In this document: piece after piece, positions 28,413-32,525 of the stretch
Layout of the letters: each line of letters opens with the position of its first letter
Numbering within the stretch: position 1 is the stretch's first letter
NCBI RefSeq assembly: GCF_002952055.1
Contig: NZ_CP021255.1
Span: forward strand, 2,426,001-2,490,000
From: Desulfobulbus oralis
GTDB lineage: Bacteria; Desulfobacterota; Desulfobulbia; Desulfobulbales; Desulfobulbaceae
Length of the DNA: 64,000 bases
Reading direction: 5' to 3'
Notes under the pieces: model-generated
Told to the model about the DNA's origin: nothing
What the model saw: only the letters and a program-made list of their open reading frames with translations
Databases searched by the model: none
Position numbers and translations under genes: made by a program

Positions 28413-29060
28413 TCAAAAAAAACCATGCTCGGCCAGAAAGGCCGCATCCAGCCTGCTGCCCGGCTGGTTTGTCTGCCCGGCCAGCAGTTTTTCCACATAT
28501 TTGCCGATAATGTCCACCTCTATGTTCACCGTGTCGCCCACTGTCAAAAGACCCAGCACGGTTTCCTGCAGGGTGTGGGGAATGACGGCCACGGAAAAGC
28601 CCGTCTCGGAGCAGTCGTTCACGGTCAGGCTGACGCCGCTGACGGCAATCGAACCCTTGGCCACCACATAGCGGCTCAAATGCCTGTCCAGAGCAAAGGT
28701 GAACAGGGTGAAATCGCCCAGGGCCCGGCGCTTCTGCACCCGGCCCATGCCGTCAATGTGGCCGCTCACCAGGTGCCCGCCCAACCGGTCAAGGGGCCTG
28801 AGCGCCCGCTCCAGATTGACGCGGTCGCCCACGCGCAGGCCGCCCAGACAGCTCCGGTCCAGGGTTTCCGGCGACACGTCGGCAGAGAAGCGGCGCGCCT
28901 CGATGTGCCGTGCTGTCAGGCAGACGCCGTTCACCGCGATGGATTCCCCTTCCCTGGGATCATCCAGGGAAAAGTCCGGCACCACGGTCAGCACCGCGCC
29001 GCCGCCAGCCGTGCGGCGCTCCACAATCGTACCCAGCCCCTGAACAATGCCGGTAAACAC
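28413..29060 (-). CDS. ribE: riboflavin synthase, alpha chain
   Basis: Riboflavin synthase dismutates two lumazines to riboflavin. The protein is 215 residues starting at a GTG (29060) that reads (V/M)FTGIVQGLG, the family N-terminus. It is built of two repeated lumazine-binding domains: GESIAVNGVCLTA in the first and KGSIAVSGVSLTVND in the second, about 95 residues apart. Only three bases separate it from the upstream TPR gene, so it is translated from the same polycistronic message. No FMN riboswitch lies directly upstream. Confidence 0.96.
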   Translation of the reverse strand: MFTGIVQGLGTIVERRTAGGGAVLTVVPDFSLDDPREGESIAVNGVCLTARHIEARRFSADVSPETLDRSCLGGLRVGDRVNLERALRPLDRLGGHLVSGHIDGMGRVQKRRALGDFTLFTFALDRHLSRYVVAKGSIAVSGVSLTVNDCSETGFSVAVIPHTLQETVLGLLTVGDTVNIEVDIIGKYVEKLLAGQTNQPGSRLDAAFLAEHGFF

Positions 29061-29063
29061 TTA

Positions 29064-29684
29064 TCAGTCCCGCTCCAGCGCCACGGCCTTCTGCCGCAGC
29101 TCTTCGGCCATGCGGGCATGCCTGAAATTCTGGTGGATGCCCGCTGCCGCCCGGTAGGAGTCGGCGGCCTTGGCCCGCTCGCCCTGCGCCAGATACGCCT
29201 CAGCCATATGTTCCAGCGTTTCCACCGCGCCCTTGGGATTTTTCATCAGACGGTAGTGCTCCAGCATGTCATCCAAAATCGCAAGCGCCCGGTCGAGCTG
29301 GCCCAGCTTGCGGCAGCACTGCATCATCTTCTTGTTCAGGGCGAGCTGGGAAAAGCTGTCATCCTCCTCCACGCAGATCCTGTAGGCCCGCTCGTAGTTG
29401 GCGAGCGCCATCCCATACTCTTCCCTGCCCATGCAGGCGTCACCCAGCCGGTCTGAGGCATTGGCCATGCCTGCCCGGTCGCCCCGGTCTTCATAACCGT
29501 GCATGGCGTTGTGAAAGCCCATGGCAGCCCGGGCGTAATCGCCCCGCTCCAAAAAGCCCCTGGCCTCCAGGTACTCCAGATAGACGGGATCGTCGGGATC
29601 CCTGTTCTCTTCAACCCGCCTGTCCGGCATGGGGCCAAGACTCGAAAGCGGCTGCAAATGTTCGGGCGCCTTGTTGGCTGTCAT
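29064..29684 (-). CDS. TPR-repeat protein of unknown function
   Basis: The ATG at 29684 overlaps the stop of the HEAT-repeat gene by four bases (ATGA), so the start is well fixed and implies translational coupling. The 206 residues have a disordered N-terminus with many Pro and Glu to about residue 45. At least four tetratricopeptide-like helical pairs follow, for example GFLERGDYARAAMGFHNAMH, LGDACMGREEYGMALANYER and EAYLAQGERAKAADSYRAAA. No signal peptide or membrane segment is seen. TPR proteins are scaffolds; the partner is unknown, but the adjacent HEAT protein is the obvious candidate. Confidence 0.85.
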   Translation of the reverse strand: MTANKAPEHLQPLSSLGPMPDRRVEENRDPDDPVYLEYLEARGFLERGDYARAAMGFHNAMHGYEDRGDRAGMANASDRLGDACMGREEYGMALANYERAYRICVEEDDSFSQLALNKKMMQCCRKLGQLDRALAILDDMLEHYRLMKNPKGAVETLEHMAEAYLAQGERAKAADSYRAAAGIHQNFRHARMAEELRQKAVALERD

Positions 29685-30826
29685 GATTGTTCTTCCTGAT
29701 GAATGAGTTGAAGCGCTTCTTCCGCGAGCTGCGCCACGGTAGTGGCGGTGAGGCCGCCCCTGTCCGGCACCATGACCGGCGTGGGATCGTGGGTCAGGCC
29801 CATGATCTGCAGCCCCGCCTCCCTGGCGCCGATACGGCCCAAAAGCCGCAGGGCGAGAGCGCGCAGCACCGGATCCTTGTTGGCCAGCACCGGGAACAGC
29901 GAATAAAAGGGCAAGGCGCGAATCGTGTCGGGCCGCTTGTCCGCAATTTCGGCCAGACCCCACAGCACCGCCTCCCGGGTACCGGGGTCGCCCATGTAGG
30001 GGAAAAGATGGCGGGCAAAAGCCCCGTAAATGTCCGGCCGGTTGGCAATAATGGCGCCAATGGCCTCCACCATGCCCCAGGAGGAGGAGGCGGAATCGGA
30101 GGCCGACTCGAAGAGCCGGTGCAGCAGATCCGCCACCGGGCCCGGGTCGAGGCTGGCGCCCGCGCCGCAGACCTGCCCCAGAATCCAGGCGATTTTGTAG
30201 CGCTCGCCCGCCTCCGGCGTGTAGAGCAGCCGCTGCAGGAAATGCAGGGTGCGGTGGTCGTCCAGGTAGAGGGCAACGAGCGCCTCCACGTCGCCTGCCC
30301 GCACCAGCCGCTGCACACCCGCCTTGTCGGCCCGTTTCTTCTGCCGTTTCGGATCCAGCCTGGGCGGTGGCGGCACATGCGCTCCCGCCGGCACCGCCCG
30401 CGGGGCTGTCTCCGGTTGCGCACCAGCGCCATGGGCCCTGGCAAAATGGGCCGCCAGTTCGGCCAGGCCCCTGTGCAGACGCACGAAGAACAGCACGCCA
30501 CGCACCGCACGGCCATCCAGAAAGCGCTCTGGAACAACCTGATGCGTCACCTCGTCATAGTTGTCGAGCTGGCCGGTCAGGTAGTCGTCTTCCGGCAGCA
30601 GATCCCAGGCCAGATCCCAGTTGCCGCCGCAGGCGTTGACCAGGCACTCCACCATGGCCGCGCCCACGTTGTGGCCCGTGGTCTCGGACACATACACCGC
30701 CCCGCATTCACAGCGGCCCAGGGGGAATTCCCGCATGCTCCGCTCCTGTGCATAGCCGGGCCGGCCCACGCTCATGCCGCAAAAGGGGCACCAGGGTCTG
30801 AGCGGCTGTTCCTTCGCCGTGCTCAT
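29681..30826 (-). CDS. zinc-ribbon and HEAT-repeat protein of unknown function
   Basis: This 381-residue protein has an N-terminal treble-cysteine motif, C13-PF-C16 and C39-E-C41, which looks like a small zinc ribbon. A conserved-looking segment around residues 45-125 includes GNWDLAWDLLPEDDYL. A basic, Pro/Ala-rich linker then leads into HEAT-like helical repeats from about residue 200 (YKIAWILGQVCG, SSSWGMVEAIGAIIANRPD, REAVLWGLAEIADKRPDTI). It recalls a HEAT-repeat family I remember from Desulfovibrio (DVU0298-like); that link is unverified. Both neighbours are TPR genes overlapping it by four bases at each end, so the three products may form one assembly. Function is unknown. Confidence 0.8.
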   Translation of the reverse strand: MSTAKEQPLRPWCPFCGMSVGRPGYAQERSMREFPLGRCECGAVYVSETTGHNVGAAMVECLVNACGGNWDLAWDLLPEDDYLTGQLDNYDEVTHQVVPERFLDGRAVRGVLFFVRLHRGLAELAAHFARAHGAGAQPETAPRAVPAGAHVPPPPRLDPKRQKKRADKAGVQRLVRAGDVEALVALYLDDHRTLHFLQRLLYTPEAGERYKIAWILGQVCGAGASLDPGPVADLLHRLFESASDSASSSWGMVEAIGAIIANRPDIYGAFARHLFPYMGDPGTREAVLWGLAEIADKRPDTIRALPFYSLFPVLANKDPVLRALALRLLGRIGAREAGLQIMGLTHDPTPVMVPDRGGLTATTVAQLAEEALQLIHQEEQS

Positions 30827-31458
30827 TGCAGAGCCTTGGCCTTCAATCCATCACTGAAACGGGGATCCACGCTGTAACCCAGTTCCCGCGCGCGCTCCAG
30901 ATGGTGCAGGGCCTCCTGGTATGCCCCGCTGAAGTACAGCGCCACCGCCAGATTGTTGTGCGCCATGCCCGAATCCGGGTCCAGCTCGACGGCCTGCCGG
31001 GCGGCCTGCACCGCCTTGGCGTCTTCCTGCTGCATGGTGTAGGCCGAGGCCAGATTCAGCCAGGCGGTAATCAGCCTGGGGTCGATTCTCGTGGCCTGTT
31101 CATAGCTCTCGATGGCCTCGGCCGCATGCCCCCGCTGCTGTTCGATCAGGCCGATATTCACCAGGGCCTCGGCCATGGTCGGAGAAATCTTCAGCGCCCG
31201 GCGATTCAGCTCCAGCGCCCGGTCATAGTCGCCGCGGCCAAAATAGATGGCGCCCAGATTGACGATGCTCTCCATGGACTGGGAATCAATCTCGATAGCC
31301 TTTTCCAGCTCGCGGATGGCATCTTCGCTGCGGCCTGCCCGCAGGTAGATCAGACCCAGCATGTGATGGGCCATGACATTGTCCGGCTTTTCCGCCACAA
31401 TCTTTTCCTGCTCCGCAATAACATCCTGAATATTCGATTCTTTTACTGCCTCTGCCAT
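30823..31458 (-). CDS. TPR-repeat protein of unknown function
   Basis: The 211-residue protein is almost entirely tetratricopeptide repeats. About five are visible from residue 20 on, such as AHHMLGLIYLRAGRSEDAIR, NLGAIYFGRGDYDRALELNR, NIGLIEQQRGHAAEAIESYE and NNLAVALYFSGAYQEALHHL. No signal peptide is present. The start ATG has an AAGGA site nine bases upstream. Its stop overlaps the start of the HEAT-repeat gene (ATGA). It is the first of the three unknown genes, 38 bases after ribF. Confidence 0.85.
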   Translation of the reverse strand: MAEAVKESNIQDVIAEQEKIVAEKPDNVMAHHMLGLIYLRAGRSEDAIRELEKAIEIDSQSMESIVNLGAIYFGRGDYDRALELNRRALKISPTMAEALVNIGLIEQQRGHAAEAIESYEQATRIDPRLITAWLNLASAYTMQQEDAKAVQAARQAVELDPDSGMAHNNLAVALYFSGAYQEALHHLERARELGYSVDPRFSDGLKAKALQ

Positions 31459-31496: not shown

Positions 31497-32447
31497 TCAG
31501 ACCAGTCTGTCCCGTCCCTCTTCCCGGGCCAGCACCCGCCGGGCCACGGTGATGTCCTTTTTGATCTGCCGGACCAGGGCCTCCGCATCGTCGAACCGCC
31601 GTTCTTCCCGCAGGTGCCTGAGCAGATCGATACGCAGCGGCCTGCCGTAAATGTCGGCCTTGAACTCGAAAATATGGGTTTCCGCCACCACGGTCTTTTC
31701 ACCAAAGGTCGGATTCCTGCCGATATTGGAGATGCCGCCGTAGCGCCTGCCGTCATAGATGACCTGGGTCACGTACACGCCCCGCCTGGGGCAGAGGTCG
31801 TCCTCCAGAATGCGGAGATTGGCGGTCGGAAAGCCCAGGACCTGCCCGCCGCGCTGCCGGCCATGCTGCACCTCGCCCCGAATCTGGTAATAGCGGCCCA
31901 GAAGCGTGCGCACATCCCGCATCTTGCCCTCTGCCACCAGAGTGCGGATAACCGTGCTGGAGACCAGCCGGCCCTGCATGTAAAAGGCCGGCACCACCTC
32001 CACGCTAAAGCCCCTGGCCGCGCCCTGGGCCTCGAGAAACGCCGCATTCCCGACCCGATTCCTGCCCATGGCGTAGTCGTAACCCACCACGAGATCGGTC
32101 ATGCCGAGCCGCTCCAGAAGGATTCGGTTGACAAAGTCTTCCGCACTGGTGGCAGCCATGGCCCGGTCAAAGGGCACGATCAAGAGCTCATCCACACCCG
32201 CCCGCTCAATCAGCTCGATTTTCTGTTCCGTGCTCGAAATGAGGCGGATGCCTTTGGGGCTCAGCACCTTCAGGGGATGGGGCTCGAAGGTGACGGCAAG
32301 GCTGATGCCGCCTGCAGCCCTCGCCCGGGCGACGACCCGGGCAAAAAGCTGCTGGTGGCCCAGGTGCACGCCATCAAAGTTGCCAATGGTCACATAGATC
32401 CGGGCGGGCCGGGGAGCCAGTTGCCCGGGGCTGGTATAAATTTTCAT
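31497..32447 (-). CDS. ribF: bifunctional riboflavin kinase / FAD synthetase
   Basis: RibF phosphorylates riboflavin to FMN and adenylylates FMN to FAD. The ATG at 32447 gives 316 residues starting MKIYTSPGQLA; a longer reading adds no homology. The N-terminal nucleotidyltransferase domain has TIGNFDGVHLGHQQLF near residue 22 and VVGYDYAMGRNRVG near 120. The C-terminal kinase domain has GRQRGGQVLGFPTANLRI, then YVTQVIYDGRRYGGISNIG and ending with ETHIFEFKADIYG. It makes the cofactors needed by the flavoproteins AprA, QmoA and QmoB encoded nearby. Confidence 0.96.
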   Translation of the reverse strand: MKIYTSPGQLAPRPARIYVTIGNFDGVHLGHQQLFARVVARARAAGGISLAVTFEPHPLKVLSPKGIRLISSTEQKIELIERAGVDELLIVPFDRAMAATSAEDFVNRILLERLGMTDLVVGYDYAMGRNRVGNAAFLEAQGAARGFSVEVVPAFYMQGRLVSSTVIRTLVAEGKMRDVRTLLGRYYQIRGEVQHGRQRGGQVLGFPTANLRILEDDLCPRRGVYVTQVIYDGRRYGGISNIGRNPTFGEKTVVAETHIFEFKADIYGRPLRIDLLRHLREERRFDDAEALVRQIKKDITVARRVLAREEGRDRLV

Positions 32448-32525
32448 GCCCTGTCTGCTGCCGGAAAAATGCGGAATGCGCTTGTCCGCGTTTCTTCTAC
32501 CCTGTTTCCGGCAAAGTGGCAATAT

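Follow-up and report, generated by a model that had tools for sequence, protein, structure and literature searches.

TPR and zinc-ribbon HEAT genes of Desulfobulbus oralis and their linkage to sulfite reductase genes in two phyla

The window analysed here is a stretch of 64,000 nucleotides of Desulfobulbus oralis (contig NZ_CP021255.1, positions 2,426,001 to 2,490,000), which encodes three consecutive genes, named here TPR1, ZnHEAT and TPR2. Two of the products are tetratricopeptide repeat (TPR) proteins and the middle one joins a zinc-ribbon domain to HEAT repeats. Relatives of these genes are, with high confidence, linked in two phyla to the dsr genes of the dissimilatory sulfite reductase DsrAB, which performs the last, sulfide-forming step of sulfate respiration. 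Because they travel with dsr genes in both phyla, they probably help to build or run sulfite reductase rather than make vitamin B2.

Linkage of the genes to dsr loci

A scan of 84,980 species yielded 320 relatives, and the best 80 of these 320 are the named loci: 44 hold dsrA, dsrB or dsrD, two hold dsrN only and 22 hold rib genes. The phyla sampled are Desulfobacterota and Bacillota.

The ZnHEAT alignment and a dsrA model were searched against the same 394 Desulfobacterota genomes. Outside the class of the window, a two-domain ZnHEAT is present in 57 genomes (in G506 it is cut by the contig end) and all 57 have a dsrA match, which is weak in G468 and partial in G552. For the 39 of these genomes with dsrA coordinates among the matches listed, ZnHEAT lies within 5.5 kb of dsrA in 25, far away on the same contig in three and on another contig in 11. 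A context set of 40 loci from outside the class has dsrA, dsrB or dsrD beside the genes in 22, dsrN only in one and dsrMKJOP-type genes in nine. Representatives of these neighbours score over the curated models for DsrB, DsrM, DsrK, DsrJ, DsrO and DsrP and over the Pfam model for DsrD; a neighbouring amidase scores over CobB models and is called DsrN by its position. Apart from these nine dsrMKJOP loci, which come from an additional labelling, the references used for the class and phylum sets comprised neither dsrMKJOP nor K0, and a zero for them there means not labelled. The dsrD label rests on BLAST comparison with a single reference, which makes a missing label weak evidence of absence. ZnHEAT and TPR2 form a single open reading frame of about 550-590 amino acids in 11 of the 40 loci, and in part of this fused clade the genes come after dsrMKJOP and before dsrABD. 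TPR1 is on the opposite strand in 11 of the 40 loci.

In the second phylum, the Bacillota-type named loci belong to Moorella mulderi, Moorella sulfitireducens, Desulfotruncus alcoholivorax and one Clostridia metagenome-assembled genome. A taxonomy check places D. alcoholivorax in Bacillota, and by name the two Moorella species belong there too. In all four loci, ZnHEAT is convergent to TPR1-dsrD-dsrB-dsrA. The Bacillota sample comprises 113 genomes of Desulfotruncus's class, of which 52 carry a full ZnHEAT, one more carries a truncated one and 75 have dsrA over the cut-off. Every one of the 53 ZnHEAT genomes carries dsrA over the cut-off (Fisher p 9e-15, the genomes not being independent). The distance from ZnHEAT to dsrA is 2.2-4.0 kb in 50 of the 52 genomes, and the two remaining genomes have them on separate contigs. 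TPR1 is found downstream of dsrAB in 20/20 ZnHEAT-positive Bacillota loci, with dsrD labelled in 19, and neither dsrD nor TPR1 is labelled in any of 15 ZnHEAT-negative Bacillota loci. M. thermoacetica is described as having two dsrAB copies of differing history, one of them flanked by dsrD (PMC10504309). Co-occurrence with dsr genes, which a first-pass annotation of this DNA had proposed to look for, is positive in both sets (57/57 genomes of the phylum sample and 53/53 of Bacillota), and the pattern that this annotation had named as counter-evidence, scattered genes together with a lack of co-occurrence, is not what the relatives show.

Within the class of the window (Desulfobulbia, Desulfobacterota), 192 genomes were searched and 39 usable loci were taken. 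A ZnHEAT match at E<=0.001 occurs in 186 of the 192; these include at least six weak matches (E 1e-8 to 1e-12) that are not full ZnHEAT, and some matches are weak and HEAT-only. The cassette is far more than chance, since it has this breadth of matches and its gene order recurs. The 39 loci divide into 18 with rib genes, 13 with dsrA, dsrB or dsrD, two with dsrN only and six with neither. The usual order where rib genes are not the neighbours is <dsrN >TPR1 >ZnHEAT >TPR2 <dsrD <dsrB <dsrA, and in 17 of the 18 rib-type loci the trio is flanked by ribF on one side and ribE on the other. Part of the class thereby has the unit within a rib operon and not in a dsr locus. TPR2 is unlabelled in four of the 39. 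Both genomes of genus g48 in the class sample (G116 and G160, 90% and 82% complete) have neither dsrA over the cut-off nor a full ZnHEAT. By conserved linkage and by co-occurrence with dsrAB, seen though not in every lineage, the genes are candidate Dsr accessory genes.

TPR1 is broader in range than ZnHEAT: among 28 Desulfobacterota loci without ZnHEAT, 16 have TPR1, and two of the misses are short stretches. The ZnHEAT-negative loci L282-L306 are about one per family among the matches listed (top dsrA) and are not a random sample. In several lineages without ZnHEAT, TPR1 immediately precedes dsrA and shares its strand (L282, L286, L292, L294, L295, L296).

Shared history of ZnHEAT and DsrA

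The DsrA tree has 128 rows, obtained from 138 matches by dropping identical ones and those under 350 amino acids; this tree and the ZnHEAT tree are quick ones built under one model, and the ZnHEAT-negative rows were not sampled at random. On the DsrA tree the ZnHEAT label needs three changes, where shuffled labels need about 35 on average. The approximately unbiased test rejects a tree in which the Bacillota DsrA sequences all form a single clade (p 0.0015). The ZnHEAT-bearing Bacillota rows nest among ZnHEAT-bearing Desulfobacterota rows in a 49-row clade with support 99. This clade holds one ZnHEAT-negative Bacillota row (L280, G584), which comes from a 5.4-kb contig and may reflect a draft gap. 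The other 14 of the 15 ZnHEAT-negative Bacillota rows group with five ZnHEAT-negative Desulfobacterota rows (support 99), and ZnHEAT-negative Desulfobacterota rows also form a separate clade of 17. Row L173 is grouped as Desulfobacterota and has the gene order of the Bacillota-class genome G642 (L247), so this grouping is wrong.

In the ZnHEAT tree, one branch (support 98) sets apart from all others the same 24 loci that the DsrA tree unites in its Bacillota clade. As judged from these trees, ZnHEAT seems to have moved together with DsrA between the phyla, whatever the direction, because its label follows the DsrA phylogeny and both trees agree on the Bacillota clade.

Gene products, cassette structure and further neighbours

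The domain content that the first-pass annotation had read from the three genes is borne out by family models. TPR1 matches Pfam TPR_1 with 121.1 bits (cut-off 27.8) and consists almost wholly of TPR repeats. TPR2 belongs with TPR or TPR-like proteins, with 29.8 bits against a cut-off of 25 for SNAP and 25.3 against 23.5 for TPR_14, and lies marginally below the cut-off of TPR_12 (30.0 against 30.1). The HEAT half of ZnHEAT scores 33.4 bits with Pfam HEAT_EZ (cut-off 27), and residues 171-373 score 170 bits with the NCBIfam model NF045662, DVU0298_fam (cut-off 75). This model covers the HEAT domain only and its name states no function, while ZnHEAT adds the zinc-ribbon domain and the TPR neighbours. 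A HEAT-only protein of the DVU0298 type is found near dsr genes in four of 20 Bacillota loci (L248, L250, L255, L263). The cysteines C13, C16, C39 and C41 are invariant in the 39 aligned class rows and form the two pairs expected of a zinc ribbon, here a metal site predicted from sequence; patches such as D244-S245-A246 and W250-G251 are likewise invariant in these rows. TPR1 scores 88.7 bits with the MamA model NF040959, where the cut-off is 200, and a C-terminal motif of TPR1, found in under half of the rows, was dropped.

The AlphaFold model of ZnHEAT built from the 39 class rows is confident (predicted local distance difference test, pLDDT, 88.6), and one half of it consists of helical repeats (residues 168-380). 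A search of solved structures with the single protein returns one designed binder (E 0.5), and with an alignment the best 60 of 197 matches are generic ARM/HEAT proteins. Foldseek finds nothing at E<=0.001, its best match having 1.5e-3; with no separate query for the zinc-ribbon domain, these comparisons do not show that it lacks a known fold. The VIA-align comparison returns importin, CAND1, spliceosome and ARM proteins with Z 12.9-15.1, near the level that, by the tool's own guidance, any helical repeat may reach.

At like positions of its successive repeats, TPR1 carries an asparagine ladder: N67 in 179, N101 in 186, N135 in 170 and N169 in 184 of 186 rows, which include duplicate contigs. 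In OGT-like TPR proteins, such asparagines grip the backbone of a peptide.

The coordinates of the cassette are collected in Table 1. Three reading frames with an ATGA overlap at both junctions lie on the minus strand, as the first-pass annotation had it, between two genes which we take to be ribF and ribE, names that come from that annotation. The gap between ribF and TPR1 is 38 nt, and the TPR2-ribE junction reads TGA TAA GTG (29066-29058), where a 3-nt gap, TAA, follows the TPR2 stop and precedes the GTG of ribE. That annotation had also described the trio as strictly coupled, which stands in part. The TPR1-ZnHEAT-TPR2 order is that of a unit in the class, and the second and third genes are fused in part of the phylum; exact ATGA coupling is not conserved, TPR2 is often unlabelled and TPR1 can be on the other strand. 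With start codons chosen by a heuristic, the exact 4-base overlap is found in 6/39 class loci for TPR1-ZnHEAT and 12/35 for ZnHEAT-TPR2, and a spacing of at most 10 nt, overlaps included, in 31/39 and 26/35.

Table 1. Features of the cassette and its flanking genes, by position in the window
Feature	Coordinates	Strand	Description
TPR1	30823..31458	(-)	TPR protein, 211 aa; relatives adjoin dsr genes, including in several ZnHEAT-free lineages
ZnHEAT	29681..30826	(-)	381 aa; N-terminal zinc-ribbon domain and DVU0298-family HEAT domain
ZnHEAT N-terminal zinc-ribbon domain	30437..30826	(-)	About residues 1-130
ZnHEAT predicted metal-site cysteines, C13-x2-C16 ... C39-x-C41	30704..30790	(-)	Invariant in 39/39 rows
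ZnHEAT HEAT domain	29687..30325	(-)	About residues 168-380; NCBIfam NF045662
TPR2	29064..29684	(-)	TPR protein, 206 aa; some lineages have it fused to ZnHEAT, and in others it is not found
ATGA overlap TPR1/ZnHEAT	30823..30826	(-)	End of TPR1 and start of ZnHEAT
ATGA overlap ZnHEAT/TPR2	29681..29684	(-)	End of ZnHEAT and start of TPR2
ribF (presumed), upstream neighbour	31497..32522	(-)	Lineage-specific context, outside the module
ribE (presumed), downstream neighbour	28413..29060	(-)	Lineage-specific context, outside the module

The host genome is one 2.77-Mb contig in which the parts are dispersed, with dsrA at 1,019,958, dsrD at 1,022,516 and the trio near 2,455,000. Its best CobB-family amidase, taken as dsrN, is at 2,160,735, and aprA (curated model) is at about 22.2-24.1 kb of the window, about 5 kb from the trio.

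Three further genes recur around ZnHEAT. K0, a CxxCxxCC protein of about 200 amino acids, is found near ZnHEAT in 31 of 79 clustered loci (e.g. L130:8751-9362), often near dsrABD; its representative scores 32.2 bits with Pfam PF03692 (cut-off 23), and it is a candidate for a further partner. One K0 query, run without a positive control, has no match at E<=0.001 in the genome of the window. K4, a second CxxCxxCC protein, occurs in 10/79 of these loci (e.g. L122:4856-5512), in the fused ZnHEAT-TPR2 clade and its relatives. K2, of about 380 amino acids, occurs in 14/79 (e.g. L110:7435-8583) and follows ZnHEAT in many; its representative has no Pfam or NCBIfam match. Some lineages that lack ZnHEAT also have K2 near dsrA (L284, L290, L291, L293, L305, L306).

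The two domains of ZnHEAT are seen as separate genes in families f18 and f62, which have stand-alone zinc-ribbon N-domain genes of about 115-130 amino acids (L143:8461-8826, L144, L145, L147, L148). No dsr gene is labelled near these five, and the stand-alone homologue in L143 has no Pfam match at E<=0.01. The supercluster dsrABDN-MKJOP of locus L150 (G207) comes with a TPR1-like gene, and a stand-alone N-domain gene lies divergently at its end. In class loci, two other genes recur next to dsrN, one for a small Cys-rich protein without family match (L049:2423-2917 and others) and one that is presumably alanine racemase-like.

Possible role in sulfite reductase maturation

There is about an even chance that the products form a helical-repeat accessory complex dedicated to DsrAB, most likely as a chaperone of its assembly or cofactor maturation. 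Assembly or cofactor loading is the simplest mechanism because the neighbouring genes encode a siroheme-pathway amidase and cysteine proteins of the chelator type. The asparagine ladder of TPR1, apparently built for an extended peptide, would hold nascent or apo DsrA or DsrB, in physical contact with them, and the HEAT grooves of ZnHEAT would likewise bind extended partners. ZnHEAT, with TPR2 where present, would be the platform for loading iron-sulfur clusters and siro(haem)amide, which DsrN produces, and the CxxCxxCC chelator-type proteins encoded nearby may assist this loading in many species. We know of no worked-out route by which siroheme amide and iron-sulfur clusters reach DsrAB. Somewhat more tentatively, ZnHEAT, TPR1 and TPR2 together with K0, K4 and K2 could be a dedicated maturation machine for the siroheme sulfite reductase, whose TPR/HEAT/zinc-ribbon platform would receive DsrA and DsrB and load both cofactors, and whose ZnHEAT-TPR1 core would be carried between phyla with dsrABD.

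Several observations weigh against this reading. In the phylum sample, over half of the 193 genomes with dsrA lack a full ZnHEAT, as do 22 of the 75 in Desulfotruncus's class. A dsrA search also covered the 12 class genomes with no or weak ZnHEAT match, along with the four genomes that hold the Bacillota-type named loci. None of the 12 class genomes has a full ZnHEAT; dsrA passes the cut-off in eight of them, is present as fragments in G184 and G179, and does not pass it in the remaining two, G116 and G160. The 10 genomes with dsrA or its fragments are all drafts, therefore some dsrA genomes either do without ZnHEAT or have it in a gap. Since many dsrA genomes have no full ZnHEAT, DsrAB can be produced in its absence. 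Neither rib nor dsrABDN genes are labelled beside the trio genes in six of the 39 class loci and in 17 of the 40 phylum loci, although two of these 17 (L107, L123) do carry dsrMKJOP-type genes. TPR2 is labelled in none of the 20 ZnHEAT-positive Bacillota loci and is missing from 15 of the 40 phylum loci, and for this reason ZnHEAT-TPR1 is the core and TPR2 a lineage-dependent third part. HEAT and TPR proteins are generic binders, as the structural matches to importin, CAND1 and designed ARM repeats illustrate, and asparagine ladders are present in many TPR proteins. The model of the natural ZnHEAT-TPR2 fusion, built from 11 rows (pLDDT 77.5, predicted template modelling score 0.43), has no firm domain packing and therefore no contacts are claimed.

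The complex could instead act on the Dsr machine at work, as a scaffold or as a regulator of its activity, for example by docking DsrAB-DsrC onto the membrane complex DsrMKJOP or by gating DsrAB. This is possible, if less probable than assembly, and a docking scaffold for the running enzyme fits the data nearly as well. Helical repeats are suited to docking, one clade has the genes between dsrMKJOP and dsrABD, and DsrD, which is termed an allosteric activator of DsrAB in the part of PMC13047784 available, is a usual neighbour. However, many Desulfobacteria-type and Bacillota loci with ZnHEAT-TPR1 beside dsrABD show dsrMK only or no dsrMKJOP in the fetched stretch, and neighbours such as DsrN and the CxxCxxCC proteins suggest a role in handling cofactors. 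It is improbable that the trio are general helical-repeat housekeeping genes and simply hitch-hike near dsr: TPR and HEAT are common bacterial repeats, and families f39 and f75 keep ZnHEAT with the genes mostly away from dsr, but the co-occurrence, the near-complete linkage in a second phylum and the agreeing trees are hard to explain in that way. Still less probable is the service to flavin or flavoprotein (Apr/Qmo) biogenesis that the first-pass annotation had drawn from the rib neighbours and the nearby aprA, since rib genes adjoin in 18/39 class loci and are labelled in none of the 40 loci elsewhere in the phylum, which makes the riboflavin link lineage-specific, in other members of the class the genes are part of the dsr locus, and two Moorella genomes with ZnHEAT-TPR1-dsrDBA have no aprA over the cut-off, so that the rib/flavin link is rejected as general and the Apr/Qmo link for Moorella.

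Among known systems, dedicated maturation chaperones of respiratory metalloenzymes of the NarJ/TorD type hold one enzyme until its cofactors are in. An assembly role of the trio would work alike, although with a HEAT/TPR architecture instead; proteins P0001 and P0002 have no Pfam match to the NarJ/TorD chaperone family at E<=1, and the Pfam matches of P0003 considered are the best 25 of 44. HEAT-repeat bilin lyase-like proteins (PBS lyase HEAT, NblB) act around tetrapyrroles. One homologue scores 20.6 bits with the NblB model (cut-off 300), and the HEAT_PBS score is 11.2 against 20.9; both are far under the cut-offs, and therefore the likeness is one of shared repeat only. DsrD, DsrN and DsrMKJOP have gene clusters in common with the trio genes, whereas their domains differ.

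The trio genes are not named in the portions available of PMC10504309, PMC13047784 and PMC10591310, nor were they met in those of PMC8528874, PMC2702500 and PMC2901600. In the parts of the open-access literature seen, a scope outside which most subscription papers fall, no paper was found that names them. Likewise, the portions seen of literature on DVU0298 and DVU1197 gave nothing useful, the sole mention of DVU0298 being in a carbon monoxide dehydrogenase gene table and probably a digit swap. In its abstract, Mussmann 2005 (J. Bacteriol.) reportedly mentions novel proteins, conserved and hypothetical, encoded in dsr clusters; some of the trio genes may be among them. Within the literature searched, these are conserved, hitherto unnamed partner genes of DsrAB, inherited with certain DsrAB branches in Desulfobacterota and Bacillota. 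As such they give concrete targets for deletion, might be added when DsrAB is produced heterologously and offer further markers for dsrABD clusters.

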